Shown: piece by piece, positions 7,806 through 29,733 of the stretch
How the letters are laid out: the number at the start of each line of letters is the position of its first letter
Position numbering within the stretch: the first letter of the stretch is position 1
Source: Bacteroidales bacterium
GTDB taxonomy: Bacteria; Bacteroidota; Bacteroidia; Bacteroidales; WCHB1-69
Direction: 5' to 3'
Assembly: GCA_031253655.1 (NCBI GenBank)
Contig: JAIRVY010000135.1
Span: forward strand, 1-40,772
Length of the DNA: 40,772 nucleotides
The notes under the pieces: generated by a model
Database searches by the model: none
What the model saw: the letters and a program-made list of their open reading frames with translations, nothing else
What the model was told of the DNA's origin: nothing
Position numbers and translations under genes: made by a program

Positions 7806-7879
7806 GGGGCGTTAGCTCAGTTGGCTAGAGCGTTAGACTGGCAGTCTAAAGGTCACGGGTTCGACTCCCGTACGCTCCA
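7806..7879 (+). tRNA. tRNA-Ala (anticodon GGC)
   Basis: Full cloverleaf of 74 bases. Acceptor arms GGGGCGT/ACGCTCC include the G3-U70 pair that identifies alanine tRNAs. The anticodon loop CTGGCAG gives GGC, the T loop is TTCGACT and the discriminator is A. CCA is not encoded. It is the integration target of the element that follows: its last 27 bases are repeated at 29706. Confidence 0.97.
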
Positions 7880-7880
7880 C
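7853..7880. repeat. attL, left attachment site
   Basis: These 28 bases (TCACGGGTTCGACTCCCGTA...) are identical to 29706-29733. They cover the T arm and 3' acceptor strand of tRNA-Ala, so the tRNA stays intact on this side next to the integrase gene. Confidence 0.95.
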
Positions 7881-7999: not shown

Positions 8000-9160
8000 A
8001 TGCGTTTAATTCAAACCTCCCTTCTTAATCAAAAAGCATTAGTATTCAACTATATGCCTGCTAAACTTTGCAAAAACAGATCCGGTTGGATTATAGAATA
8101 TTATGTGGAAAATCCGCTTACTTTTGAAATGTGCCGAGTTCGAAAACGTGTCCATTTTATTAAAAAAAGATACAAAAGTGTGAGAGATGCAGAAAGTCAT
8201 TGCCAAAAAATTATTTACGATATAAATGCAAAGATGGCAAATGGAATTAACCCGATGTTTTCTGATGATAACCCAGTCGGATATACAACCATTGCTGAAG
8301 TTATTAAAAAGTTTTTAGAGGAAAAAACACGCGAAGTACGACCCGACACGATGCGCTCCTACAAATCTTTTTCAAATATTTTTTTAAACTATATTTCTAA
8401 AACGTCTCTCGCTTTTATTTGTAAGTTCGGAAAAATTGAAGCCGCACAATATTTAGACTATATTTATAATGTACGTAAAATATCTCGCCGATCGTATAAT
8501 AACTATTTGAAATTTATTCGGGTTGTTTTTAATTGGGCAATTGAAAAAGGCTACATTTTGACTAATCCTTTTGAGCAAATGAAAACTAAGAAAAAAGAGG
8601 AAAAAAATCGTACTCTTGTGGATTCTGCATCAAGAAAGAAACTAATGGAATATTTAAACGCAAATGATAAGCAGTTTTTAATTGTATTAAAGTTGGTTTA
8701 TAGTGCATTAATCCGCCCCAAAGAGATTACAAATTTACGGGTTTCAGATATAGATTTTAATAACAAAACTGTTTGTGTAAATAGTAAAGCTGCAAAAAAT
8801 CATAACACAAGGTACATAGCCCTTACAGACGATATTTTAAACGATTTAAACTATATTAATGATTTTAAGAAAGATATGTTTTTAATATCTCAAAATATGA
8901 TGCCTGGTTATACTCAAGCACACCGGGCAAAGTACGGGAAAATGTGGGTAAAATTACGTGACAACTTAAAACTACCTAAAACAATGCAACTCTATTCTTT
9001 ACGTGATTCTGGTATTACAGATATGCTTAAAGCAGGTATCGACCCGCTTACCGTTAAACAACATGCCGACCATCATTCGTTAGAAATGACTACAATATAT
9101 TCAAAACACGCGGATCCAAATTTAATAAAAATTATCCGTGAAAAAGCACCGGCGTTTTAA
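8000..9160 (+). CDS. int: tyrosine recombinase (integrase)
   Basis: 386 aa. Residues 15-90 look like an arm-binding domain (SGWIIEYYVENP), about 95-190 form the SAM-like core-binding domain (EEKTREVRPDTMRSYKSF), and about 205-380 are catalytic. The visible catalytic residues are the first Arg in SALIRPKEITNL, Arg in LYSLRDSGITDML and His plus Tyr in ADHHSLEMTTIYSKH. The usual His of HxxR is Tyr here, a variant seen in many Bacteroidota integrases. It should recombine attP with tRNA-Ala. A later in-frame ATG at 8054 is an alternative start. It converges with the GIY-YIG gene, overlapping it by four bases. Confidence 0.93.
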   Translation: MRLIQTSLLNQKALVFNYMPAKLCKNRSGWIIEYYVENPLTFEMCRVRKRVHFIKKRYKSVRDAESHCQKIIYDINAKMANGINPMFSDDNPVGYTTIAEVIKKFLEEKTREVRPDTMRSYKSFSNIFLNYISKTSLAFICKFGKIEAAQYLDYIYNVRKISRRSYNNYLKFIRVVFNWAIEKGYILTNPFEQMKTKKKEEKNRTLVDSASRKKLMEYLNANDKQFLIVLKLVYSALIRPKEITNLRVSDIDFNNKTVCVNSKAAKNHNTRYIALTDDILNDLNYINDFKKDMFLISQNMMPGYTQAHRAKYGKMWVKLRDNLKLPKTMQLYSLRDSGITDMLKAGIDPLTVKQHADHHSLEMTTIYSKHADPNLIKIIREKAPAF

Positions 9161-12126: not shown

Positions 12127-13107
12127 TTAAAAGGTATAATTAAAACCACGTAATCTTGGATATGTAATATCTTCGCTTACAATCTCCCAAATAGTGTCCA
12201 TATCCCATCCCATTGTATCGCGGTAAAATGCAAGTGATTTTAGCTGTGTTTCTGTTGCGTTAGCGCCATTTCTTAAACTTGCGCCTATATCAATCGTAGG
12301 TATTGCATTGTTTAACAGTGCAGTATCCAATGAATAGTTGTTAATCAATTGTGGAGTATTCGCGTGTCCACCTGCAATTCTTTTTGATCCGACTGTTCCT
12401 GCTAAAGTCGCGTTAATTGTAGCAAGGTTAACGCAATTACTGATTTTCGCCGATGAGTTCTCTGTCCTACATATACCAAACGCATTACCTGACCCACCGT
12501 TTATCGTTCCTTTTGACAAGCAATTTCTAACTTCAAATTGTTGCGCTCTACTATTGATAATATTTGCATATCCATAACCACCATCTTTTGTTGCGACAAA
12601 ATCAACCACACAGTTTTCAATCAACCCTGAAAATTGAGTAGCGATTCCAGCTAACTCATAATTTACTTTTTGTATAATAATACCTTGTACATAAACTTTT
12701 CTTATTATCCCATTTCCTCCATACCCTATTGCGCCTGTATTATTATTAATACCTGCCTTCCCTAATCTGTTAATATACACATTAATAAAAGCCAAATTTT
12801 CTAAAATACCGTTAACGCTTCCAAAAAGTGCTGTTGAATTAAAAGTGGGTGCCTTGTCGTCAATAATTATGTTTTTGAAAACCTTGTAGTTTCCGTGAAA
12901 ATGACCTTCGTAAACAGCATTTTGATAAGGTATTGTAAACCCTGTAAAATCTATGTTATTGGTAACTTTGTGATGTATTCCTGAAAAAGTATTACCAATT
13001 ATCATTTCGTTGCGAAATGCAATATAATCAAATACATTTTCAATTAAAAAAGGGAACTCTTCCGTTCCTAATTCTGGCTTTCCCATTAGTCTTCTACTTT
13101 GTTTCAT
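12127..13107 (-). CDS. receptor-binding spike candidate, beta-helix type
   Basis: 326 aa. After TEEFPFLIENVFDYIAFRN the protein consists of short repeated beta units with Asn/Gly turns (NIDFTGFTIPYQNAVYEGHF, ALFGSVNGILENLAFINVYI, IENCVVDF, KISNCVNLATI). This is the sequence style of GLUG/right-handed beta-helix fibres. The end (TMGWDMDTIWEI, YPRLRGF) is also typical of GLUG-type adhesins. Four bases of overlap with the collagen-like gene suggest they act together as stalk and head. Likely role: host recognition at the virion surface. Confidence 0.65.
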   Translation of the reverse strand: MKQSRRLMGKPELGTEEFPFLIENVFDYIAFRNEMIIGNTFSGIHHKVTNNIDFTGFTIPYQNAVYEGHFHGNYKVFKNIIIDDKAPTFNSTALFGSVNGILENLAFINVYINRLGKAGINNNTGAIGYGGNGIIRKVYVQGIIIQKVNYELAGIATQFSGLIENCVVDFVATKDGGYGYANIINSRAQQFEVRNCLSKGTINGGSGNAFGICRTENSSAKISNCVNLATINATLAGTVGSKRIAGGHANTPQLINNYSLDTALLNNAIPTIDIGASLRNGANATETQLKSLAFYRDTMGWDMDTIWEIVSEDITYPRLRGFNYTF

Positions 13108-13697
13108 ACTGGAATTCTAAAAGGTGTATTACAAATCAACCCATTAGATATTGACAGTTCATAAATCGTACCTCCTTTGCAAGGGAATTCTCCCGCCAAT
13201 GAGGTACCTGCCGGAACACTTAAAATTGTTGGGGATACGGATACGGCGTTGGATGCTATTCCGCTTTTATACCAAATAACTATATCCTGTGTTAGACTTA
13301 ACGGAATTGAATTCAATACTAAGTGTGATAAATTATCAAATATATAGCGCGTATCTAATTTTGGTGTAAGTGCTATAGATGTAGAGACTAAATCTTCAAC
13401 GATTAGGGGCAAAGTACTATTACCGGGATCACCTTTGTCGCCTTTTGGACCGGGATCGCCTTTGTCGCCTTTTGAACCTGGATCACCCTTGTCGCCTTTT
13501 GAACCGGGATCACCTTTGTCGCCTTTTGGACCGGGATCACCTTTGTCGCCTTTTGGACCGGGATCACCTTTGTCGCCTTTTGGACCGGGAGTTTCAGTAC
13601 TAATACCGGATTCATCTTGGCAAAATTTATCACTTTTTCGATAGATAAAGCGTTTATCTAACACCTTATCTGTTATGTTTCCCTTATTTTTTTCCAT
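13104..13697 (-). CDS. collagen-like stalk protein
   Basis: About 197 aa from ATG at 13697 (the track uses TTG at 13703). Residues about 34-87 are 18 collagen triplets, arranged as six copies of GPKGDKGDP or GSKGDKGDP. A C-terminal beta-rich domain of about 105 residues follows. Gly-X-Y runs form triple helices, so the protein should be a trimeric stalk. PRD1 spike protein P5 is a known tailless-virus protein with a collagen-like part. The 27-bp DNA repeats are nearly identical, so the copy number may vary. Confidence 0.8.
   Translation of the reverse strand: MEKNKGNITDKVLDKRFIYRKSDKFCQDESGISTETPGPKGDKGDPGPKGDKGDPGPKGDKGDPGSKGDKGDPGSKGDKGDPGPKGDKGDPGNSTLPLIVEDLVSTSIALTPKLDTRYIFDNLSHLVLNSIPLSLTQDIVIWYKSGIASNAVSVSPTILSVPAGTSLAGEFPCKGGTIYELSISNGLICNTPFRIPV
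13434..13594. repeat. six 27-bp tandem repeats in the collagen-like gene
   Basis: The unit CCTTTGTCGCCTTTTGGACC plus GGGATCA recurs six times with a few changes. It codes for the GPKGDKGDP repeat on the minus strand. It creates long open frames on other strands that are shadows. Confidence 0.9.
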
Positions 13698-13699
13698 AT

Positions 13700-13774
13700 T
13701 CAAAGGTTCTTATAAATTATCCAAATTCCAAAAGCTATAGCTACAGATGCTGCCCCTATTTCAAAATATTTCAT
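13700..13774 (-). CDS. tiny membrane protein, 24 aa
   Basis: ATG at 13774 gives MKYFEIGAASVAIAFGIWII plus four residues, which is a single membrane segment and little else. It overlaps the end of the glucosaminidase gene by 14 bases, and its stop overlaps the start of the collagen-like gene. It fits the series of tiny TM proteins in this operon, but such a short frame could be chance. Confidence 0.4.
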   Translation of the reverse strand: MKYFEIGAASVAIAFGIWIIYKNL

Positions 13775-14249
13775 AACTTTTTTTTTCATCAAGAGTTTCT
13801 AAATTATATTGTTTAATGATGTTTATCAATTTATTGGCATAACCCGGGTCGGTGGCATAACCACAACTTTGCAGCGCCTTTGCCTGTTCTTCCGGGGTTT
13901 GCGCATCTCTAACCCGGGCATAGCGCGATAAAGTGAGTAATAAGTGAGAGTGATCTTTAATAGAATCCTGTATGGAACTGTAGGCACGAAATTTATCTAC
14001 AATGCTAATATTTCCATCACCATAGTTTTCTTTTGTAGAGGCGGTTATTGCGTTTCCTTTCCAATAGGGAGAAAAACTACCGGAGGCTTTAATACCAAAC
14101 AAATTCTTTGCTTCGCCAACTGTGCTTCTTCCCCATCCTGTTTCTAAAGCTGCCTGTGCCATTTTTACGGATGGCAACAATGGCGTGCCCAGTGTGGATA
14201 ATACTATCGCTTCTGAATATTGGTCAATAAATTTTTTTTCTTTACTCAT
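13761..14249 (-). CDS. glucosaminidase-type cell-wall hydrolase
   Basis: 162 aa. The domain is the FlgJ/mannosyl-glycoprotein endo-beta-N-acetylglucosaminidase fold: MAQAALETGWGRS with the catalytic Glu, NLFGIKASG, YSSIQDSIKDHSHLL, and CGYATDPGYANKLINIIKQY at the end. It has no signal peptide. It should cut peptidoglycan, either as a virion entry enzyme or with the holin in lysis. It overlaps the 48-aa TM gene by four bases (ATGA). Confidence 0.9.
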   Translation of the reverse strand: MSKEKKFIDQYSEAIVLSTLGTPLLPSVKMAQAALETGWGRSTVGEAKNLFGIKASGSFSPYWKGNAITASTKENYGDGNISIVDKFRAYSSIQDSIKDHSHLLLTLSRYARVRDAQTPEEQAKALQSCGYATDPGYANKLINIIKQYNLETLDEKKSYEIF

Positions 14250-14392
14250 ATCTTTTTACTGATAATTATTAAGATTATTCCCACAATAAAAACAGCTACC
14301 GCTAATACGGCAGCGCTCAAGTAGTCTATTCCAATATCTACTCTCACGGCTTTGTCGCCGGATATTACATCTAAAATTCCTTTGTCGTTCAT
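14246..14392 (-). CDS. small membrane protein, 48 aa
   Basis: Too short for the ORF track. ATG at 14392 gives 48 aa: a soluble start (MNDKGILDVISGDKAVRVDI) then one membrane segment (about 25-46) ending SKKI. It starts one base after the stop of the peptidoglycan-binding protein gene and overlaps the glucosaminidase start by ATGA, so coupling is very likely. Probably a virion-membrane protein. Confidence 0.65.
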   Translation of the reverse strand: MNDKGILDVISGDKAVRVDIGIDYLSAAVLAVAVFIVGIILIIISKKI

Positions 14393-14393
14393 A

Positions 14394-14723
14394 TTAGGTA
14401 GTATGTTCTTGGTCTATTTGTGAATAATAAAAAGATTTGCTTACGATACGCATCCCCGTCAAATTGTAGAGTCTGGCTTCTGTTTTATATCCAAAAATTC
14501 CATCTTCAACTAATTGTTCCGCCATAGGATTTAACGCGTTAAGTACTTTCTGAAGAAATATAACCCTTACGCCTGTACTGCCTTGTTTCAAAGGAAAATT
14601 ATCACTGCGTACTTCCGGTGTGTTATCCCTTGCTTTTTTTTGCTTTATCTTTTTGATAATAAAATAAGAAGCAATTCCAAGTAAAGCTAATACAACAATA
14701 ATCATAACGATTTTTTTTTTCAT
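14394..14723 (-). CDS. membrane-anchored peptidoglycan-binding protein
   Basis: 109 aa. An N-terminal membrane segment (about 5-24, VMIIVVLALLGIASYFII) and a basic linker precede a peptidoglycan-binding_1 domain (about 45-95). Its marks are PLKQGSTGVRVIFLQKVLNAL and DGIFGYKTEARLYNL. It would tether a membrane, of the virus or the host, to the cell wall. Standing just before the glucosaminidase gene, it probably helps DNA entry or lysis. Confidence 0.75.
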   Translation of the reverse strand: MKKKIVMIIVVLALLGIASYFIIKKIKQKKARDNTPEVRSDNFPLKQGSTGVRVIFLQKVLNALNPMAEQLVEDGIFGYKTEARLYNLTGMRIVSKSFYYSQIDQEHTT

Positions 14724-14740: not shown

Positions 14741-15214
14741 TTAAAATTTGTAAAATATCCCCTTTTTAGTTAGAGTCTTATTTATCTCTTTTTTTATGTC
14801 TCCTGGCTTCCACCAGTGCACCTCACCATCAAGCCACTGCTGCAAGTTCTCTCCGTCTCGTACGCCAAATGCTTGCACTAATTTGAGCACGTCTGTAATG
14901 TTAATCATTTGCTCAAACACATCTTTAATAGTAGTTTTATCGGTCCCTGCGCCTTTCATTGCGGTATAAAGACGGTTGGCAAATTCTTTGTATTTGGCAT
15001 CGTTATAAGATGGTGGGTTGCCGTTGTCTATCTCTTTGCTTATATCGCTGTCTAAGGCTATTTTTGTGCTGATACTGTTGAATAGCGCTTTAATTTTCGA
15101 CCAGGAAAAATAAAATACTACTGCAATTACTGCCAAAATGATTAATAGCGCTAACAAGCGCTTAGGATTACTTACCAACCCCTCTGTTTTATCTAATAAA
15201 TTTTGATTTGCCAT
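14741..15214 (-). CDS. membrane protein with annexin-like repeat
   Basis: 157 aa. One membrane segment (about 20-40, LLALLIILAVIAVVFYFSW) is followed by a domain holding RLYTAMKGAGTDKTTIKDVF (about 83-102). That stretch matches the annexin repeat core in which the M-K-G-x-G-T-D loop binds calcium against a membrane. Only one repeat is visible. By position it is a virion membrane protein. The motif is seen; membrane or calcium binding is inferred. Confidence 0.6.
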   Translation of the reverse strand: MANQNLLDKTEGLVSNPKRLLALLIILAVIAVVFYFSWSKIKALFNSISTKIALDSDISKEIDNGNPPSYNDAKYKEFANRLYTAMKGAGTDKTTIKDVFEQMINITDVLKLVQAFGVRDGENLQQWLDGEVHWWKPGDIKKEINKTLTKKGIFYKF

Positions 15215-15215
15215 A

Positions 15216-15686
15216 TTATTTTTTTTGTTTGAATAATACTAAAATAATGCCTGCTACTACTAAAGCGCCGATAATTAATGTTCCATTTGATATGCCGGAA
15301 AAAAGTTGCTGCTTTTCGTCTTCTAAAGTTTTTTTTCGCAATGTACCATCGTCTTTGTGCAAATTACCATCCTGATCTTCTAAATAACCGTCCTCATCAC
15401 TTTCTGAAAGATACCCGGACCTTTTGATTTCCTGAATTTCTGACATGAATTTGTCTCGATCTCCCACTGATACATGGTAAGTTCTTACAAACCTCTCTTT
15501 TCCGGTTCCACCAACTTCCGTTTTTTGAATCAAATACGACCAATACTTATTAATCAAATCCTGCAGAAGTCCCGTATTATTTTTATTGGTGTTAACCCTA
15601 AGCCGTTTGGGGTAAGCAGCAAAATACTGTGTATTAGTGATCATATCAGCCAAGGTCGTACGATCCTTATTCGTAATTTGTGCCAT
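15216..15686 (-). CDS. C-tail-anchored virion protein candidate, 156 aa
   Basis: 156 aa. The soluble N-terminal part (MAQITNKDRTTLADMITNTQ) includes an acidic stretch with Gly-Tyr-Leu repeats (SGYLSESDEDGYLEDQDGNL, about 102-121) that looks like a loose calcium-loop pattern. A C-terminal membrane segment (about 134-153) ends FKQKK. Not recognised. It ends two bases before the annexin-like gene begins. Confidence 0.65.
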   Translation of the reverse strand: MAQITNKDRTTLADMITNTQYFAAYPKRLRVNTNKNNTGLLQDLINKYWSYLIQKTEVGGTGKERFVRTYHVSVGDRDKFMSEIQEIKRSGYLSESDEDGYLEDQDGNLHKDDGTLRKKTLEDEKQQLFSGISNGTLIIGALVVAGIILVLFKQKK

Positions 15687-15691
15687 AATTA

Positions 15692-16327
15692 TTATTTTTT
15701 AAGTTTTCCTGAAATAACAAATAGAGATATCAGAATGGCTGCCAACAAAATGTTGGTCATGGAAAAATAGATGTTTCCAATGGCGAAGCCATTCACTTTA
15801 TGGCTTTTTCCGTATGTGGTAGTAGTTACCGGTGTGTCATCGGTGCCGTCGGCGCGTTTTTTTCTGTTCTTTCTTTTCTTTTTTATAGGAAGCATTGCAC
15901 CGTTTGCAGCTGCCTTTTGAAAAGGATTATCTGAATGGTTAAGTTTTTTTCTCATATCGTTTGAATTTTGATTTATTTTTGGGTATGATGTTTTTCCTGC
16001 GTGTTTTATTAAAGCCGCTTCATGATAAAGCGCATTGAGGCGACTTTTGTCTTTCAGGTTCATTTTAGCAAGTGCATTAATGCCGTCTTTTAAGGCACTT
16101 TGGTTTATTTTAAGAGTTTGCACTAATGCGTAGGCATCTGCTTCCTTTTCAAATTCAGTAGGAAGCAAGTAGTGTCCGCGCTCATGCTGAATGATAAAAG
16201 CACGTTCGTAAGGGGTAAATTTATGCCAAACGTCTTTATTGATTTCAATAATGCCGGTTGCCATATATACGGCTGCCGGAGAGCGTCCTATAACCGTTGA
16301 ATCCACAATATTTATTTTATTTTCCAT
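15692..16327 (-). CDS. membrane-anchored HExxH metallopeptidase-like protein
   Basis: 211 aa. HERGH at residues 48-52 is an HExxH zinc motif, followed by EKEADAYAL (60-68), whose E-x-x-A-D arrangement resembles the third-ligand region of M48-type gluzincins. A strongly basic stretch (KKKRKNRKKR, about 149-158) and a C-terminal membrane segment (about 188-208) follow. It would be a small zinc protease fixed in a membrane. In the middle of a structural operon it may mature virion proteins or cut envelope proteins during entry. No signal peptide is present. Confidence 0.6.
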   Translation of the reverse strand: MENKINIVDSTVIGRSPAAVYMATGIIEINKDVWHKFTPYERAFIIQHERGHYLLPTEFEKEADAYALVQTLKINQSALKDGINALAKMNLKDKSRLNALYHEAALIKHAGKTSYPKINQNSNDMRKKLNHSDNPFQKAAANGAMLPIKKKRKNRKKRADGTDDTPVTTTTYGKSHKVNGFAIGNIYFSMTNILLAAILISLFVISGKLKK

Positions 16328-16330
16328 TTT

Positions 16331-16636
16331 CTACTTTTTTACACTTCTTAATTTCTTAAATCCAAGCCACGCAGCAATAACTACAACTACTATTACTGCT
16401 ATAATAGCAGTAATGTAAGATAAATCTATACCGCCGGTTCTTTTGTCTATGATAAATCGACTTCTCGGAGCATTCGCACTTTTCTTCGACTTAAACAAGT
16501 TCGTAACTCCACTGAAAATACCTTTAACACCCCCCTCTACAACCTCCCCAACAATAAATCTTCTTTTCTTTTTATGAGGGGAAGATTTTTTTATTTCGGT
16601 TTTTTCATCAAGCGAAAAATAGATATATTGTTTCAT
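16331..16636 (-). CDS. C-tail-anchored virion protein candidate, 101 aa
   Basis: 101 aa. The basic N-terminal half (KKSSPHKKKRRFIVGEVVEG) is followed by a linker and a C-terminal membrane segment (about 73-93, TAIIAVIVVVVIAAWLGF) with a Lys/Arg tail. The basic part may face the genome inside the virion. Not recognised. It lies between two other TM protein genes, three bases or fewer apart. Confidence 0.65.
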   Translation of the reverse strand: MKQYIYFSLDEKTEIKKSSPHKKKRRFIVGEVVEGGVKGIFSGVTNLFKSKKSANAPRSRFIIDKRTGGIDLSYITAIIAVIVVVVIAAWLGFKKLRSVKK

Positions 16637-16638
16637 TG

Positions 16639-16914
16639 TTATTTTTTGCGAATTAGCATAATAAGTCCTACCACTACGGCGATACTTACAACACCAAGAA
16701 TCATATACAATCCTATATTACTTTTTTGTGGATTCTGTTGGGCGTTGTAATAGCTTGTGTTTTGTACTTCTTTTCCGCCGATAATACCGCTTGCTAAATT
16801 ACCTGCACCTGTAAGAATATCTCCCGTATTGCTCAATAAAACTTCCCACCACTTGCCGCCGGTTTCTCCCCCGTTTCCATACTGTTTTTTTAATTGTGAT
16901 TGTTTTGGTATCAT
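16639..16914 (-). CDS. C-tail-anchored virion protein candidate, 91 aa
   Basis: 91 aa. A glycine-rich first half (YGNGGETGGKWWEVLLSNTG) precedes an amphipathic stretch (ILTGAGNLASGIIGG) and a C-terminal membrane segment (about 68-88) ending IRKK. Not recognised. It is the first gene after the capsid candidate and its hairpin, and shares the one-TM, basic-tail layout of its neighbours. Confidence 0.65.
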   Translation of the reverse strand: MIPKQSQLKKQYGNGGETGGKWWEVLLSNTGDILTGAGNLASGIIGGKEVQNTSYYNAQQNPQKSNIGLYMILGVVSIAVVVGLIMLIRKK

Positions 16915-18143: not shown

Positions 18144-18338
18144 TTACGGCTCTCCCAGATGATTCACAATTTCGTTTATCTGTTTGATGCTGTAATAATA
18201 CCCGTCAGGTTTGATATGTTGTAAACTTTTACACCTTAGCCACGATTTAAAAGTTTTGGAGCATACACAGTACGCCCGGGCTAATTCTTTCAGCAATCTG
18301 GGTTTGTCGGTTATTTTTTCTCTCTGTCTTGTTTCCAT
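18144..18338 (-). CDS. DUF4248-like small protein
   Basis: 64 aa. LLKELARAYCVCSKTFKSWL near residue 15 and KQINEIVNHLGEP at the end match DUF4248, a small helical, probably HTH-like family frequent in Bacteroidota mobile elements. It may bind DNA. It overlaps the end of the ATPase gene by 28 bases, so both should be co-translated. Confidence 0.65.
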   Translation of the reverse strand: METRQREKITDKPRLLKELARAYCVCSKTFKSWLRCKSLQHIKPDGYYYSIKQINEIVNHLGEP

Positions 18339-18907
18339 AGTGCGCGTATTTGTTCATCAATTAGCAATATCTTATAGTAGTAAGGGTTGCCGGCTTCTAC
18401 TTTCTTTTTTATATCAGCCTGCATTTTTATTATTTTTTCAAATAGTTCGGGGTAAACATCTTTTTTTCGGGAAACAAAACTTTCAACGGTATTAAATAAG
18501 ATAAGATAACTGGTAAAGGTGAAACATTTTGGCGGTACTTGTCTAAGTCCGTGTGCTACAAAATACAGGTCAATGCCGTGGTGTCTGCGGCGTATATACA
18601 GATATTGCATCATTGCCGGCGTTTGTTCATCTAAATATGCCATAGCATCATCAAGTACCAAAATGCCTCCGGAATAGTTGTTTTTTATTGCTTCTAACGT
18701 TTTGGGACCTTCGTAAATCATACGCGCATGCCCTGTGAAGGTTCTTATTTGTTCGTTTGTAATGAGTGGCAATTTACGCCACTCCAAACCATCGGGCGTT
18801 ACAACCAATCCTTTTTTCCCAGTAAGTAATACGGAATTTGCAATAAAAGTAGTTTTACCTGTTCCGTTTACTCCTACTATTAGTGTGAGTTCAGTTTTTC
18901 GTATCAT
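18311..18907 (-). CDS. FtsK/HerA-type ATPase, packaging ATPase candidate
   Basis: 198 aa. The Walker A is GVNGTGKT (12-19), the Walker B is GILVLDDA (81-88), and RRRHHGIDLYFVAHGLRQVP (106-125) is the Arg/sensor region typical of the HerA-FtsK group. The size is that of genome-packaging ATPases of tailless membrane viruses, near 200-230 aa, and far below terminases. Zot of filamentous phages shares the R-H-x-G-x-D pattern and is the main alternative. The capsid candidate follows two genes later, and lysis genes argue against a filamentous phage. A rightward promoter sits just upstream of its start. Confidence 0.75.
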   Translation of the reverse strand: MIRKTELTLIVGVNGTGKTTFIANSVLLTGKKGLVVTPDGLEWRKLPLITNEQIRTFTGHARMIYEGPKTLEAIKNNYSGGILVLDDAMAYLDEQTPAMMQYLYIRRRHHGIDLYFVAHGLRQVPPKCFTFTSYLILFNTVESFVSRKKDVYPELFEKIIKMQADIKKKVEAGNPYYYKILLIDEQIRALWKQDREKK

Positions 18908-18945: not shown

Positions 18946-19043
18946 CGTGATTTTCATACAGTGCAGAAAATTAAAAACTGTTAGCGTCGATGTTTTTAGC
19001 AGTATCACGAAAAAAAGGAGCCCAAGTTTATTTGGGCTTTTTT
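18946..19043 (+). ncRNA. small RNA candidate A
   Basis: A region of about 98 bases between the promoter and the hairpin AGCCCAA-GTTTAT-TTGGGCT with six Ts (19019-19043). CGTGAT at its start pairs with ATCACG at 19004-19009, enclosing further possible stems (ACAGT/ACTGT). The terminator lies inside the last codons of the convergent gene at 19028, and works on both strands. No ORF is convincing. Seen: promoter, fold and terminator. Inferred: a stable RNA. Confidence 0.55.
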
Positions 19044-19426
19044 AATATGTCAAAGGCGGTTAGTAGCCAATTTTTACCTTTATCAATAGCTATAACGAAT
19101 CTAAAACCCTCACCTTCAAAAACTTTTTTATGTGATTCTGATTTTTTTAAATTTACATTTCCATGTTCTACAATAAGAATAATAAATGTTGCAAAATCAA
19201 ATCCAAGTCTTTTTATTTCGGAGCCATGCTTTTCGAAAATATGTTTTAATCCATATCCTTTGTTTGTTTTCGGGTCATTCTTGCCCCAAACAATATCAAT
19301 ATATCCTATATCGTTACGAAATAAAGCTTTGGTACATTCTCCTTCTTTTACTTTTAAAAGATGTTTTATTGCTTTAGTTCCTTGTTTTTCAAATTGTGTG
19401 TAAGTTGTTCCAAATTTACTTTTCAT
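19028..19426 (-). CDS. barnase/colicin E5-like (PBECR-type) nuclease domain
   Basis: 132 aa. NKGYGLKHIFEKHGSEIKRL (about 55-75) and the end RFVIAIDKGKNWLLTAFDIL match phage BECR-fold nucleases (the PBECR families), in which a Lys/His-bearing helix and the W-x-L-T-A-F strand form the RNase core. It is probably an RNase toxin or effector. It overlaps the 156-aa gene by 11 bases. No immunity gene with clear features follows; instead a convergent RNA candidate meets its 3' end. Confidence 0.6.
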   Translation of the reverse strand: MKSKFGTTYTQFEKQGTKAIKHLLKVKEGECTKALFRNDIGYIDIVWGKNDPKTNKGYGLKHIFEKHGSEIKRLGFDFATFIILIVEHGNVNLKKSESHKKVFEGEGFRFVIAIDKGKNWLLTAFDILKKPK

Positions 19427-20752: not shown

Positions 20753-20835
20753 GTTGAATTCGGAAGGCGAAAAAACAAGTAGAGTTTGCGAAGCGTTCAA
20801 GGTAACTCCTTTATACCGCAAACTCTATTTTATTT
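20753..20835 (+). ncRNA. small RNA candidate B
   Basis: About 80 bases ending in an 11-bp stem, TAGAGTTTGCG (20780-20790) with CGCAAACTCTA (20817-20827), followed by TTTTATTTATTT. The loop holds a minor AAGG/CCTT hairpin. The 3' arm runs into the last codons of the convergent gene at 20811. It may be a stable RNA or just a bidirectional terminator; the promoter favours the former. Confidence 0.5.
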
Positions 20836-21254
20836 ATTTCTAAATTATAATAAAAATAACCGCCTTTCTGCATTTGGACTGTAATTCTAATATGTTCAAG
20901 TTTTTCATCTATATTGCATTTTACTTTAAAATTTAAGTAACCAATAACAACCTCAGAATCTTTTTCTTTTCTGTTTCCAAAATTATTTAACATAGCATAT
21001 TGTATGAGTTTTGGAAGAATTTGTATTACTGCTGACTTTTTTTTATAAATTGCTCCTCCCATTGCTGTTTTTCTGCCTCCGGTAACAGTTATTTTAATAG
21101 TCAATTTTGTATCTTCATTCACAATGTTTTGTCCAGCAAGTTCTGTTTTTACATAATTGATAATATATTTTCTAAGTTCTTTACCCGACATATTACTAAA
21201 TAAATCCTGAGTTTTTACAGATGGGATTACCTTTTGTATGTATTTTTTATCCAT
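20811..21254 (-). CDS. LPD3-like polyvalent-type domain protein (paralogue 1)
   Basis: 147 aa. It is homologous to the protein at 24190: both have a V-K-T start region, an N-I/T-V-N-[ED] turn, NNFGnRKEnD, GYLNFK, and a final Y-Y-N-x-E strand. The layout (two beta halves joined by a helix, ending in a strand with Tyr-Tyr) resembles LPD3-type domains found beside phage nuclease toxins. The function is not established. It starts leftward after a gap that holds CI-type palindromes, so the repressor may control it. Confidence 0.5.
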   Translation of the reverse strand: MDKKYIQKVIPSVKTQDLFSNMSGKELRKYIINYVKTELAGQNIVNEDTKLTIKITVTGGRKTAMGGAIYKKKSAVIQILPKLIQYAMLNNFGNRKEKDSEVVIGYLNFKVKCNIDEKLEHIRITVQMQKGGYFYYNLEINKIEFAV

Positions 21255-22186: not shown

Positions 22187-22465
22187 TTATCGAAATAAAT
22201 CAGAATGAGTTCCCGTATGGGTTAAAACTACAGTTACAGTGTTTTTATTTACATACCATATAAGTAACCAGTTGGGTTGCAAATGCGCTTCCCACATATT
22301 CGAGTAATTGCCGCTTAATTTATGCGTTTTATACTTGTCTACCGGTAATGTTCCTGTGGCAATAAGTATTTTAATAGCATCATTTAGCAATTCCATATTA
22401 TAGGACCGCTTTTGCATCAATTTTGCCTGTTTTTTAAATTCGTTGGTATATTCAATAGAATACAT
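22187..22465 (-). CDS. YafQ/RelE-family toxin
   Basis: 92 aa, full length for YafQ. Family marks are YTNEFKKQAKLMQKR, the short central HKLSGNYSNMWEAHLQPNWL, LIWYV and the end LTHTGTHSDLF. YafQ toxins are ribosome-dependent mRNA interferases using conserved His residues, and these are kept. It follows the antitoxin candidate by six bases, in the usual antitoxin-toxin order, and ends at a clear terminator. Confidence 0.9.
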   Translation of the reverse strand: MYSIEYTNEFKKQAKLMQKRSYNMELLNDAIKILIATGTLPVDKYKTHKLSGNYSNMWEAHLQPNWLLIWYVNKNTVTVVLTHTGTHSDLFR

Positions 22466-22471
22466 ACTTGA

Positions 22472-22672
22472 TTACTGTAATATTTCTTCCAATGGATTTT
22501 TAGTATTTTTTAATTTGAGAGTTTTGCCGGATTGTAATTCACTCATTGACTTTTTAAATGAATGGGTAGGCAGTTTTTCTTCCATTCTAAAAATACCTAA
22601 TGTCAATAAGTAATTTAATGTTTGCACTGCCATTCTATTTCTTGTATTGTAATGTAATGTAACTGTCGCCAT
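22472..22672 (-). CDS. antitoxin of the YafQ-type pair
   Basis: About 66 aa starting MATVTLHYNTRNRMAVQTLN (the track adds two residues from an earlier ATG at 22678). A beta-strand start followed by helices and a charged, partly disordered tail (SELQSGKTLKLKNTKNPL) is the usual antitoxin layout. The -7 box lies about 20 bases upstream, so the pair has its own transcript. Confidence 0.75.
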   Translation of the reverse strand: MATVTLHYNTRNRMAVQTLNYLLTLGIFRMEEKLPTHSFKKSMSELQSGKTLKLKNTKNPLEEILQ

Positions 22673-22691
22673 TGTCATATTTTTGATGCGG

Positions 22692-24135: not shown

Positions 24136-24205
24136 TCAAAACAATCGGTTAGAAATTCTCATTGAGAGCGATATTCAATCTCTGACTTTCTAACCGATTT
24201 TTATT
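24136..24205 (+). ncRNA. small RNA candidate C
   Basis: About 70 bases dominated by a perfect 13-bp stem, AATCGGTTAGAAA (24143-24155) with TTTCTAACCGATT (24187-24199), then TTTTATTA. Its loop holds a TCTC/GAGA hairpin. The 3' arm overlaps the last codons of the convergent gene at 24190. On the minus strand the T-run is poor, so the hairpin serves rightward transcription best. Confidence 0.5.
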
Positions 24206-24612
24206 ATGTTTACTTCGTGATTGTAATATGTATCACCTGTTTTTAAAAGCCTTACAGATATTCTAACACACTCCTTTTTATCATTAATGTATACAAATGC
24301 CTTAAAATTCAGATAACCCAACAATTCTTTTGGGTCGTTTTCTTTTCTGATTCCAAAATTATTATACTTTGCTACTTTTAGAAGTGATGGTAAAACTTCT
24401 AATACGGCTGTTTTCTTTATGTGTAACGCCCTGCCGTATGCTAGTTCAGCCTTTCCAAGTGCTGTAAACTTTATGCTTATTCCCAAATGATCGTTTACAA
24501 TGGTTTTTCCTTGTAAATTATTAGTATAATATTTAGCAACACTTTTTCTGTTATTGGCAATGGACCCGGTCTTAACCTTGGGGATTATGATTTGTTTGTA
24601 TTTTTCTATCAT
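24190..24612 (-). CDS. LPD3-like polyvalent-type domain protein (paralogue 2)
   Basis: 140 aa. It is a paralogue of the protein at 20811, sharing IxPkVKT near the start, NNFGIRKENDPKELLGYLNF in the middle and YYNHEVNIIKI at the end. It is AT-rich like other accessory genes here. LPD3-type domains accompany phage nuclease toxins, but this resemblance is from pattern only. A convergent RNA candidate meets its 3' end exactly as for the genes at 20811 and 19028. Confidence 0.5.
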   Translation of the reverse strand: MIEKYKQIIIPKVKTGSIANNRKSVAKYYTNNLQGKTIVNDHLGISIKFTALGKAELAYGRALHIKKTAVLEVLPSLLKVAKYNNFGIRKENDPKELLGYLNFKAFVYINDKKECVRISVRLLKTGDTYYNHEVNIIKIG

Positions 24613-25220: not shown

Positions 25221-28200
25221 CTATTCTTCCATATCAAACCACTTATTAGCAATGGTAATATACTCCGTTCCGCTGCGCTTATCCTTTCCGGGTTTCTCCG
25301 GATCGAGCGTTTGTGCCGGGTTTAGGCGCAAGCCCCAGTAGCGGCAATATTGCGTAAGTTTTTTCCAAAATTTCTGCGGCGTGTAAAAGCGCTTTTGACT
25401 GGGGCACTTATCCAAGTAGTTGTATTGCAGGATAACGCGCTCTATCGGCGTGTTAAGCTGCGTGTCGTTTCGGCTTTCAACGGTGTTTTCGTCAACCCCC
25501 AAGTAGTCGTTAAACCAGCCGAGAAACAACTCGCCTATTTCCTGTTTCAACTGGCGGCGCTCTAAGCGCTCGGTGGAAGCCTGTATCAGCCCGGTCCCGT
25601 TAATGCCCCAGCCATTTTCGCGGGCAATAAAATAGAGTTCCAAACACTCTGCCATGAAATTGTAAAACAGATTCCATTCTTCGCCGTCCCATTCATCAAA
25701 GAAGTTTTTGCCAAACAGTTCTCGCGGTTTGTAGTCGTCATCAAAGAAGTCACAGAAGGCTATCCGGAACTGCCGGTCGCGGATGCTGGCGCTGGTGCCG
25801 TTAATGGCGTGGTTGGTAGTAAGGTAAATCTTGGGAACCTCAGAGCCGGAGAGGGTAAAGCGCGGCTTCCCTTTCGGTTCTACTACCATCTTGCCGGTGA
25901 TGATGGTAAATAGTACATCGAAATCGAAGTTTACCCGGATATCGTCAACAAAAATATTTTCTGTTTTTTCTGTTACTTCTTCCCAAAGGTATTTTTCTTT
26001 ATCCATGTCGCACTTTCCGTTTACATACGCCTGTATGAGCATTTGCTCCAGCGCAACGCCGAGCAGAGACTTGCCGGAACGTCCGTTGCTCTCTCCCACT
26101 TCCGACAGTTTACCGTCCATGCCCACAATTGCCTTTTCGCAGCTTTTATCCCGGTATTGGTGTAACAGATACCCAATGGCGCACATTTTACTTACAAAAT
26201 GCAGATTCGTGTCGGCAATTTCTTCCGGAAATTGTAGAATATCAAGCGCGTTGGTTTGCTGTTTGTGGTCATCATAAAACTTTTCCCAGTAGAAGTTTGA
26301 AGTGTAGTAGAGAAATCGGGCAAAGTCGCATTTTTCACCGAAAGTACTAAATCCCACAAGATACTTACCCATGAGGGAAGCGGGTAAAGAGGATTTTTCA
26401 AGTATTGCTTTGTCAATCTTAACCACGTTAATAATGCGGTCGGTGCGTGTGGCATCAAATTCTTTCAATTGTTCGTGCCAAACGTTTTCTTCTATCAGCT
26501 TCATGGGCTTTTCATTGATGCCGGCTGCCGATATTTCCCAGTATTTGGTTTTGAAAAAAATATTTTCGCTGTCGCGGTTTGGTTTGAGCAGGTTCGGATA
26601 ATAGTAGTCTATATTGCTGATACTTTCGCGCCCGAAGTACATTTTACCGCCTTTTAGCAGCATATTTACAACCGGTTTGTCGCATACTTCTTTTGCTAAA
26701 TCCATGGCAAAGTCGCGGGCTTCGTAGTGGCTTATCATGCGCACGATGTTATCTTCCACTCTTACAAAATCGAAATCGTTGTTGTGGGTGTGAATGCGGT
26801 AAAAGCCGCGGTTGCGGTAAAACTTTAGCATATTCACATAATCGAAGTTGTACAGTTCGTATTCTTCGCCGGTGCGGTCGGTTTTCTTTATTACCTGCCA
26901 AAACTTTTCATCATCGTAGAGCGGTTGCGCCAGTTCCATTTCGTTTTGCTCGTTAAAGCGCCACATATTGCCGCCATATTTGAATTTTGGCAGTTTTTTA
27001 AGCGCTTCAATATGAAACTCGCAGAAATCTTTCCGGTCGTTCAAATACCAAATCTGCATGAGTTGCAAATCCGGTATGGAGGAAATTTTGTATAACTCGA
27101 TATTGATAAATGCCCGGGTTTCTTTTTTGGCAATATCGTTCATCTGTTGCTCAAGTTCTACAATAAACTCCGATTCTTTGCCGGAAAGGCTACCGGTTAG
27201 CAAATCATCAATCCCTTTTTCTGCCGGCGTGTTTCCGCAAACTAAATACACTTCAAGAAATATTTGCCGGTTTGCCAATGTTTGAAACCAGTCGCGGAAG
27301 TTCTTTGCTGCATAGAAAAAATTGCGGCTTCGTTGCGAAACGTCTTTATCTTCCTTTATGTTGTCGGATAGTTCTCTAAAATCGCTATCGAGTACTAAAA
27401 AAACTTCTTGCACTCCGCACCGTTCAATCACTTTCAATACGTTGTCCGGAAACTGTTTGTTTTTGCCAACCAAAGAATTTATACCGGGCATGCCAAAAGC
27501 CGGCATGCCGTGTTTGCACATCTTTTCGGCTTTCTTTTCGCCTTCGGTAAAAAACAATCGCTTTGTTTCCCGGGAGTTTTTGTACATTTCGCGCAATGTT
27601 TCCGGAATATACAGTTGCACACTGGCGCCGTAAGGCGTTTTATACTTGCAAATACTTCCGTCTTTCAATTGGTGGCTTTCTGGGAACTGCCAGCGCACGC
27701 GGTAAAAGTCTCGCAGTTTTTTATTATCTTCTTTAACTTTATACTGAACCTGCCTGCCTTCCAAATCCAAATAGCGAATAATCATATCGTCGCCGTCCAC
27801 AATTTGCCCCATCTCATTGAGCGTTGCCGCCTCAAACACATTGAGGCTTTTAATGCCGTTGTCGGTATTTTCCATTGCCCGCACGTCCTTAACGGTAAGT
27901 CCGGATTGTTCTAATTGCCGGTTTTTAAATGATACTTCCCGGGCGCTTGCTTTAAGCCCACGGTCCCGATGAGGCTCCTCCGGAATGGTGATGTTAAATA
28001 GATCGGCTAAATAGCGCAATGCTTCCGGGTAGGTCTTACCGGTGGCATCCATCACGTATTTTATAGCGCTATTACCGCCATAATCACAGGAAAAACATTT
28101 AAAAAGATACTCCCCTTTTACCTTGCTTACTTTCAGCCCCCGGTCTTTATGGCACATGGGGCACTCTCCGGCATAATCCTTGCCGCTCTTTTTAAGAGTA

Positions 28201-28277
28201 GTAATAGTATCTATGGTTTTAAAGAGATCGGCGGCGCGTTTAATTTCATCGGCGGTTTCTTTACTAATATGGCTCAT
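25221..28277 (-). CDS. primase-helicase (zinc finger, TOPRIM, SF3-like helicase)
   Basis: 1018 aa. A Cys4 zinc finger (CPMC at 39-42, CFSC at 61-64) opens a DnaG-like primase part. TOPRIM marks are FFTEGEKKAEK (about 240) and VFLVLDSDF (about 297). The C-terminal third is a helicase: Walker A GESNGRSGKS (near 735), Walker B ENIFVDD (near 776) and PKIYLTTNHAI (near 820), as in the SF3/D5 group. It should start and drive replication of the element. The gene is visibly more GC-rich than the genes around it. Confidence 0.88.
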   Translation of the reverse strand: MSHISKETADEIKRAADLFKTIDTITTLKKSGKDYAGECPMCHKDRGLKVSKVKGEYLFKCFSCDYGGNSAIKYVMDATGKTYPEALRYLADLFNITIPEEPHRDRGLKASAREVSFKNRQLEQSGLTVKDVRAMENTDNGIKSLNVFEAATLNEMGQIVDGDDMIIRYLDLEGRQVQYKVKEDNKKLRDFYRVRWQFPESHQLKDGSICKYKTPYGASVQLYIPETLREMYKNSRETKRLFFTEGEKKAEKMCKHGMPAFGMPGINSLVGKNKQFPDNVLKVIERCGVQEVFLVLDSDFRELSDNIKEDKDVSQRSRNFFYAAKNFRDWFQTLANRQIFLEVYLVCGNTPAEKGIDDLLTGSLSGKESEFIVELEQQMNDIAKKETRAFINIELYKISSIPDLQLMQIWYLNDRKDFCEFHIEALKKLPKFKYGGNMWRFNEQNEMELAQPLYDDEKFWQVIKKTDRTGEEYELYNFDYVNMLKFYRNRGFYRIHTHNNDFDFVRVEDNIVRMISHYEARDFAMDLAKEVCDKPVVNMLLKGGKMYFGRESISNIDYYYPNLLKPNRDSENIFFKTKYWEISAAGINEKPMKLIEENVWHEQLKEFDATRTDRIINVVKIDKAILEKSSLPASLMGKYLVGFSTFGEKCDFARFLYYTSNFYWEKFYDDHKQQTNALDILQFPEEIADTNLHFVSKMCAIGYLLHQYRDKSCEKAIVGMDGKLSEVGESNGRSGKSLLGVALEQMLIQAYVNGKCDMDKEKYLWEEVTEKTENIFVDDIRVNFDFDVLFTIITGKMVVEPKGKPRFTLSGSEVPKIYLTTNHAINGTSASIRDRQFRIAFCDFFDDDYKPRELFGKNFFDEWDGEEWNLFYNFMAECLELYFIARENGWGINGTGLIQASTERLERRQLKQEIGELFLGWFNDYLGVDENTVESRNDTQLNTPIERVILQYNYLDKCPSQKRFYTPQKFWKKLTQYCRYWGLRLNPAQTLDPEKPGKDKRSGTEYITIANKWFDMEE

Positions 28278-29705: not shown

Positions 29706-29733
29706 TCACGGGTTCGACTCCCGTACGCTCCAC
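29706..29733. repeat. attR, right attachment site
   Basis: An exact copy of 7853-7880, i.e. a tRNA-Ala 3' fragment without the rest of the tRNA. It marks the right end of the element; rarD begins six bases later. Confidence 0.95.

Follow-up and report, generated by a model that had tools for sequence, protein, structure and literature searches.

A membrane-anchored single-repeat annexin-like protein encoded in a provirus of a Bacteroidales bacterium

Results

The provirus and its genes

The window, by which we mean the whole stretch of 40,772 nucleotides analysed here, carries an integrated element of 21.9 kb in a Bacteroidota chromosome, and the annexin-like gene with which this work is concerned lies inside that element (Table 1). 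The final 28 bp of a tRNA-Ala gene are repeated exactly downstream and the two copies bound the element; with an integrase and att repeats in a tRNA gene it has the marks of a temperate provirus, and the genes flanking it are chromosomal, for example those for an FKBP isomerase and methionyl-tRNA synthetase.

The module of interest is read entirely from the minus strand in the order packaging-type ATPase, a small 64-aa protein, major capsid protein candidate, two small proteins with C-terminal transmembrane (TM) segments, metallopeptidase-like protein, a further protein with a C-terminal TM segment and the annexin-like protein. After it come a peptidoglycan-binding-like protein with a TM segment, a TM protein of 48 aa, the glucosaminidase and, last, the collagen-like fibre protein. 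By hydropathy, single-TM proteins form a run between the capsid candidate and the lysin. A preliminary description of this DNA had placed the gene in a run of virion-type genes, a view that the attL and attR repeats, the integrase, the packaging-type ATPase and the capsid candidate bear out.

Table 1. Features of the provirus and of the annexin-like gene within it
Feature	Position	Strand	Evidence
attL, 3' end of tRNA-Ala(GGC) 7806-7880	7853..7880		exact 28-bp direct repeat
Tyrosine integrase	8000..9160	+	Pfam PF00589, 1.1e-17
Collagen-like fibre protein	13104..13703	-	Pfam Collagen; tail fibre PHROGs
Glucosaminidase (lysin)	13761..14249	-	Pfam PF01832, 5.7e-33; PHROG endolysin
48-aa single-TM protein, possibly holin-like	14246..14392	-	ORF and hydropathy; similar small TM ORFs in L012, L013
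N-terminal TM and peptidoglycan-binding-like protein	14394..14723	-	weak PG_binding_1, E 0.17; endolysin PHROGs
TM-anchored annexin-like protein, 157 aa	14741..15214	-	ORF, Pfam, PDB sequence search, AlphaFold2, Foldseek
Annexin repeat, residues 72-150, helices A-E	14765..15001	-	AlphaFold2 helices; Foldseek
E131, partner acid of putative type II calcium site	14822..14824	-	conservation; alignment with annexin VI D655
GxGT loop, residues 88-91 (putative calcium-site carbonyls)	14942..14953	-	conservation in 29 relatives
Transmembrane segment, residues ~20-38	15101..15157	-	hydropathy; single helix 17-63 in AlphaFold2 model
Protein with C-terminal TM	15216..15686	-	hydropathy; homologue in L013
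Metallopeptidase-like protein (HERGH), C-terminal TM	15692..16327	-	weak M56/M48; relative in L013 over M48 cut-off
Small protein with C-terminal TM	16331..16636	-	hydropathy
Small conserved protein with C-terminal TM	16639..16914	-	homologues in L012 and L013
Major capsid protein candidate, all-beta, 203 aa	16996..17607	-	conserved with ATPase and annexin; AlphaFold2
Packaging-type ATPase	18311..18907	-	weak Pox_A32 and STIV B204 matches; conserved
Primase-like replication protein	25221..28277	-	CHC2 zinc finger, 1e-16; DUF3854
attR	29706..29733		exact 28-bp direct repeat

The ATPase has weak matches to Pox_A32 (E 0.015) and to the packaging NTPase B204 of STIV (E 0.035). The AlphaFold2 (AF2) model of the capsid candidate is all-beta and of moderate confidence (pLDDT 79), and a Foldseek search with it returned no significant fold match, the chains listed including PRD1 P5, PR772 and phiCjT23; an attempt to name a virus family by way of the capsid candidate failed for want of a significant fold match. 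The annexin, capsid candidate and ATPase genes occur together on 12 contigs, and two IMG/VR contigs (L147 and L148) show the same arrangement as the provirus module. The place of the peptidoglycan-binding-like gene beside the annexin gene is conserved.

Several other features of the provirus were recorded. The adjacency of the metallopeptidase-like gene to the annexin gene is conserved. The collagen-like part of the fibre protein is encoded by tandem repeats of 27 nt at 13395-13610; a protein with a PBECR1 domain (phage-Barnase-EndoU-ColicinE5/D-RelE-like nuclease), conserved in L012, is encoded at 19028-19426; and a YafQ-type toxin at 22187-22678, with a small ORF upstream, is likely to form a toxin-antitoxin pair. 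The proteins of 20811-21254, which matches Pfam LPD3, and 24190-24612 are related, and both are matched by one L013 homologue.

Membership of the annexin family

The open reading frame at 14741-15214 is real and lies on the minus strand, a point absent from the preliminary description. In its 157-aa product, residues 81-100 read RLYTAMKGAGTDKTTIKDVF, and N-terminal to this stretch lies a strongly hydrophobic segment (residues ~20-38), so that the membrane segment earlier said to precede the annexin motif is indeed present.

The same description held that this motif is close to the core of an annexin repeat, and both the sequence comparison with the PDB and a profile of 29 relatives agree. With the protein as query, phmmer against all PDB chains gave 71 sequences at E<=10, the best 60 of which are all annexins or annexin fusions (top E 2.5e-14, summed over repeats); the reversed domain, as a control, found no annexin among the PDB sequences, its best E being 0.42. 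The profile of relatives found annexins only among the 60 PDB matches listed (best E 1.1e-31), and with a second profile, from which all sequences of the same family were left out, the annexin domain of the window scored 71.5 bits, whereas none of 5000 shuffles exceeded 14.3. The outcome with the annexin HMM itself was divided: the Pfam Annexin model (PF00191) matches residues 78-130 at E 0.0016, and the score of 18.9 bits falls short of the curated cut-off of 25, a gathering score that serves to detect single sequences and does not describe a biological feature. A relative with two repeats (L111:9413-10108) clears the cut-off with 37.4 bits. Run against the genome that contains the window, the Pfam model gave nothing at E<=0.001, and it was silent in control genomes too, which makes this search uninformative. 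Matches of the protein to SpoIIIAC, confined to the TM region, and to Flp1-like and similar families, taken to be driven by the TM segment, were discarded.

The AF2 model, computed from the 29-sequence alignment, has a mean pLDDT of 88.8. It predicts a long helix (17-63) that would form the TM segment plus a stalk, followed by helices 72-86, 93-101, 106-116, 124-130 and 139-150 in the annexin A-E order. All 50 PDB matches listed by Foldseek are annexins or annexin fusions, with probabilities mostly of 0.97-1.00 and, for many, a superposition of about 2 A over 63 columns; the E-values are just 0.07-0.6, as is expected because the query is a single short repeat. Structure prediction, put forward earlier as a check, has thus returned the five-helix annexin repeat with annexins as its PDB neighbours, and by this model the outer part of the protein folds as a true annexin repeat, present once, with helices A-E. 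A search of this type in BFVD matched two unannotated viral proteins, both at probability 1.00, one of 801 aa from an uncultured tailed phage and one of 154 aa, and therefore we do not claim the first such protein in any virus.

The single-sequence Pfam score under the cut-off is what could be said for a chance resemblance to annexins, the probability of which we consider negligible given the annexin matches of phmmer and of the profile, the AF2 fold, the annexins found by Foldseek and the two-repeat relative above the Pfam cut-off; the reversed and shuffled controls led us to reject it. The annexin fold and family membership of the protein are well supported. Classical annexins have a core of at least four repeats, and with one repeat in its 157 aa this protein belongs to the domain family as a single-repeat form and falls outside the classical annexins.

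The putative calcium site

Type II calcium sites of annexins are formed by carbonyls of the GxG loop together with a distant acid. The corresponding residues of the protein are G88, G90, T91 and E131, the last lying 41 residues past G90 and aligning, in the PDB phmmer search, with the aspartate D655 of annexin VI (chain 1m9i). Among the 29 relatives, G88 is conserved in 21, G90 in 24 and T91 in 25, while position 131 holds E in 17 and D in 9 (26 of 29 in total). Loss of the motif in close homologues had been named as grounds for doubt; each of the five aligned relatives from the same family keeps a GxGT, GxGS or GxGC loop, and the acid at 131 is kept in the 26 just mentioned. These residues suggest that the protein may bind calcium. 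The loop or the acid is lost in relatives L022, L035 and L043. The protein at the annexin place of L147 lacks a match to the annexin profile, and the TM protein at that position of L148 (15445-15912; same gene order) has a degenerate GxGT loop; calcium binding would thus not be universal.

Relatives and a second type of element

Whole-genome searches found relatives of 34-45% identity in further genera of the bacterial family to which the host belongs and, within this range, a second annexin copy elsewhere in the same assembly, as well as a more distant homologue in another family. The second copy belongs to a diverged copy of the element (L010, contig C173, 382-2459) with annexin, peptidoglycan-binding-like and ATPase genes and a capsid fragment at the contig end. 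Profile matches occur in 9 of 104 family genomes, 37 of 393 order genomes and 12 of 396 genomes of the phylum sample; the weakest span mainly the TM part and were excluded from the relatives. An N-terminal TM or hydrophobic stretch followed by the annexin domain is constant across the 29 aligned relatives. Pattern scans with the window annexin in IMG/VR and GTDB contigs gave no match, whereas the whole-genome protein and profile searches did. Among 50,697 phage records there was no match for the window annexin or the ATPase; two relatives likewise found none in phage records, and one relative none among plasmids. A GWGTDED annexin-like stretch was also noticed in a 539-aa protein (L113:30-1649) whose IMG/VR contig encodes a phage-type DNA polymerase.

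A TM-annexin also adjoins a lysozyme-like protein in a different module, found in Marinilabiliaceae and other Bacteroidota and on IMG/VR contigs L112, L114 and L115. Cultured isolates such as Breznakibacter xylanolyticus DSM 6779 and a Carboxylicivirga strain are among the carriers of this second type. This module has a large protein of 611-838 aa, transglutaminase-like by eye, and a conserved protein of 213-281 aa, and is shared by L111 and its relatives L154 and L155. It was located at L111:8059-17258, L102:7169-17633 and L114:3028-13663, with the transglutaminase-like, 213-281-aa, annexin and lysozyme proteins as its conserved components and most of its proteins without a PHROG match. In L067 two annexin genes are adjacent, which recalls the annexin pairs of flavobacteria (PMC3894181).

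Discussion

A possible role for the annexin-like protein

The element is probably a temperate Bacteroidota virus that is tailless and contains a membrane, although the run of single-TM proteins only suggests an internal virion membrane. What has been computed for the protein is an annexin fold, conserved type II site residues, a TM anchor, a location in a provirus and conserved neighbours. Most likely it is anchored in a membrane, binds lipid in a calcium-dependent way and serves to dock or bridge membranes in the course of entry (or lysis). More specifically, we infer that it is located in the virion, as a protein of a structural and envelope-penetration module whose calcium-dependent docking or bridging of the viral and host membranes helps fusion or genome delivery, a reading to which we give a probability of about 0.45. 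The viral membrane would carry the protein, its annexin domain borne on a helical stalk; on opening of the virion at the cell surface, calcium would enable E131 and the A/B loop to attach to the acidic headgroups of host membrane lipids; and the membranes would then be docked or bridged, together with the action of the neighbouring peptidoglycan-binding and -cutting proteins, as an aid to the fusion or genome-delivery step. The points that we count for this are the annexins that make up the PDB matches listed, with a reversed control free of them, the AF2 helices A-E, the annexins of the Foldseek listing, the conserved site residues, the ends of the provirus and its integrase, the module of 12 contigs, the run of TM proteins and the IMG/VR contigs. 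Against it stand the capsid candidate, with no significant fold match, the degenerate loop in L148 and the protein of L147 that the annexin profile does not match, and the glucosaminidase neighbour, which fits lysis equally well; a single repeat, moreover, may bind membranes weakly.

Of the two main alternatives, lysis and a calcium-independent scaffold, the first would make the protein a late component of the host inner membrane with a periplasmic annexin domain, acting either as a spanin-like clamp from inner to outer membrane or to position the peptidoglycan binder and glucosaminidase for the opening of the envelope. The immediate neighbours (the TM peptidoglycan-binding-like protein, the 48-aa TM protein and the glucosaminidase) point this way, as does the lysozyme-like neighbour in the second type of element, but the entry enzymes of membrane phages can be peptidoglycan hydrolases too, so that such neighbours are not decisive, and the annexin gene sits within the single-TM run that follows the capsid candidate; taken jointly, we regard the lysis variants as doubtful. 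An annexin-fold scaffold that works without calcium, as an adaptor between the viral membrane and the capsid or a vertex, would be consistent with the single repeat, with the constancy of the TM anchor and with the relatives in which loop or acid is gone (L148 besides the three aligned ones). A pure scaffold would have no need of the GxGT loop and the acid at 131, both kept in most relatives, and we judge this explanation unlikely. It is very improbable that the element is non-viral, a satellite or transfer element whose protein serves cell-surface attachment or transfer: the capsid candidate is unproven, and annexin and ATPase find no counterpart in the phage records, yet the packaging-type ATPase, lysin, fibre, att sites and integrase speak for a virus, as do the IMG/VR contigs that share the arrangement.

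Annexins characterize the membrane biology of eukaryotes, and both their origin and their puzzlingly patchy presence in bacteria invite explanation. Conserved membrane-anchored annexins in provirus modules offer a simple explanation for this patchiness, and some of the 'bacterial annexins' of Bacteroidetes may be viral genes. We put forward tentatively, as a possibility somewhat short of probable, the wider proposal that TM-annexins recur as a structural or entry component in two or more lineages of viruses of Bacteroidota, and that the patchy Bacteroidetes annexins are largely proviral. If true, annexin repeats would have in viruses both a reservoir and a vehicle, and viral entry would make use of membrane bridging that depends on calcium. 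The provirus annexins also suggest a role that can be put to the test, namely docking or fusion under the control of calcium in membrane phages, and they bring the question of annexin origin within easier reach, since viruses carry genes from host to host.

Comparison with known systems

A search of the full text of open-licence papers found no paper on viral annexins of the TM-anchored provirus kind, and as far as the searchable literature shows, the TM-anchored annexin is new as a recurrent provirus component. The 2014 survey of Kodavali et al. reported no annexins in Archaea or viruses and described those of Cytophaga, Kordia, Marinilabilia and other bacteria as cellular genes (PMC3894181). 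Our protein resembles these in its single repeat, in the TM segments that some of them have, in the Bacteroidetes hosts and in the adjacent pairs; metalloproteases were noted beside the Kordia annexins, as a metallopeptidase-like protein (15692-16327) is found here. On the survey's description, it is set apart by the location of its gene in a provirus module and by the good conservation, among the TM-annexin relatives, of the D/E-turn acid, which the survey found to be less conserved in bacterial annexins.

The gene order of the element resembles that of phages of the PM2/Vinavirales type: the ATPase comes first, followed by the capsid protein (here a candidate) and small membrane proteins, with the lysin and fibre genes after these. 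A run of single-TM proteins between capsid and lysin genes is likewise described for PM2-like phages, and the ATPase, with its weak A32 match, may be of their FtsK/A32-like kind (PMC9502842). The element differs in its 203-aa capsid candidate, which is unmatched to the double jelly roll, and the paper on PM2-like phages does not mention an annexin (PMC9502842). In the toxins of PVC-type secretion and eCIS, too, an annexin repeat occurs in a delivery system that is phage-like or derived from phages; there it is a soluble domain with a toxin domain after it, whereas here there is a TM anchor and no toxin domain (PMC3482391, PMC8213781). From the eukaryotic annexins (PF00191; annexin VI 1m9i, annexin XII 1dm5, annexin A5) the protein is distinguished by one repeat in place of four to eight, by its N-terminal TM anchor and by its viral gene context, and with them it shares the five-helix repeat, the GxGT loop and the acid of the D/E turn.
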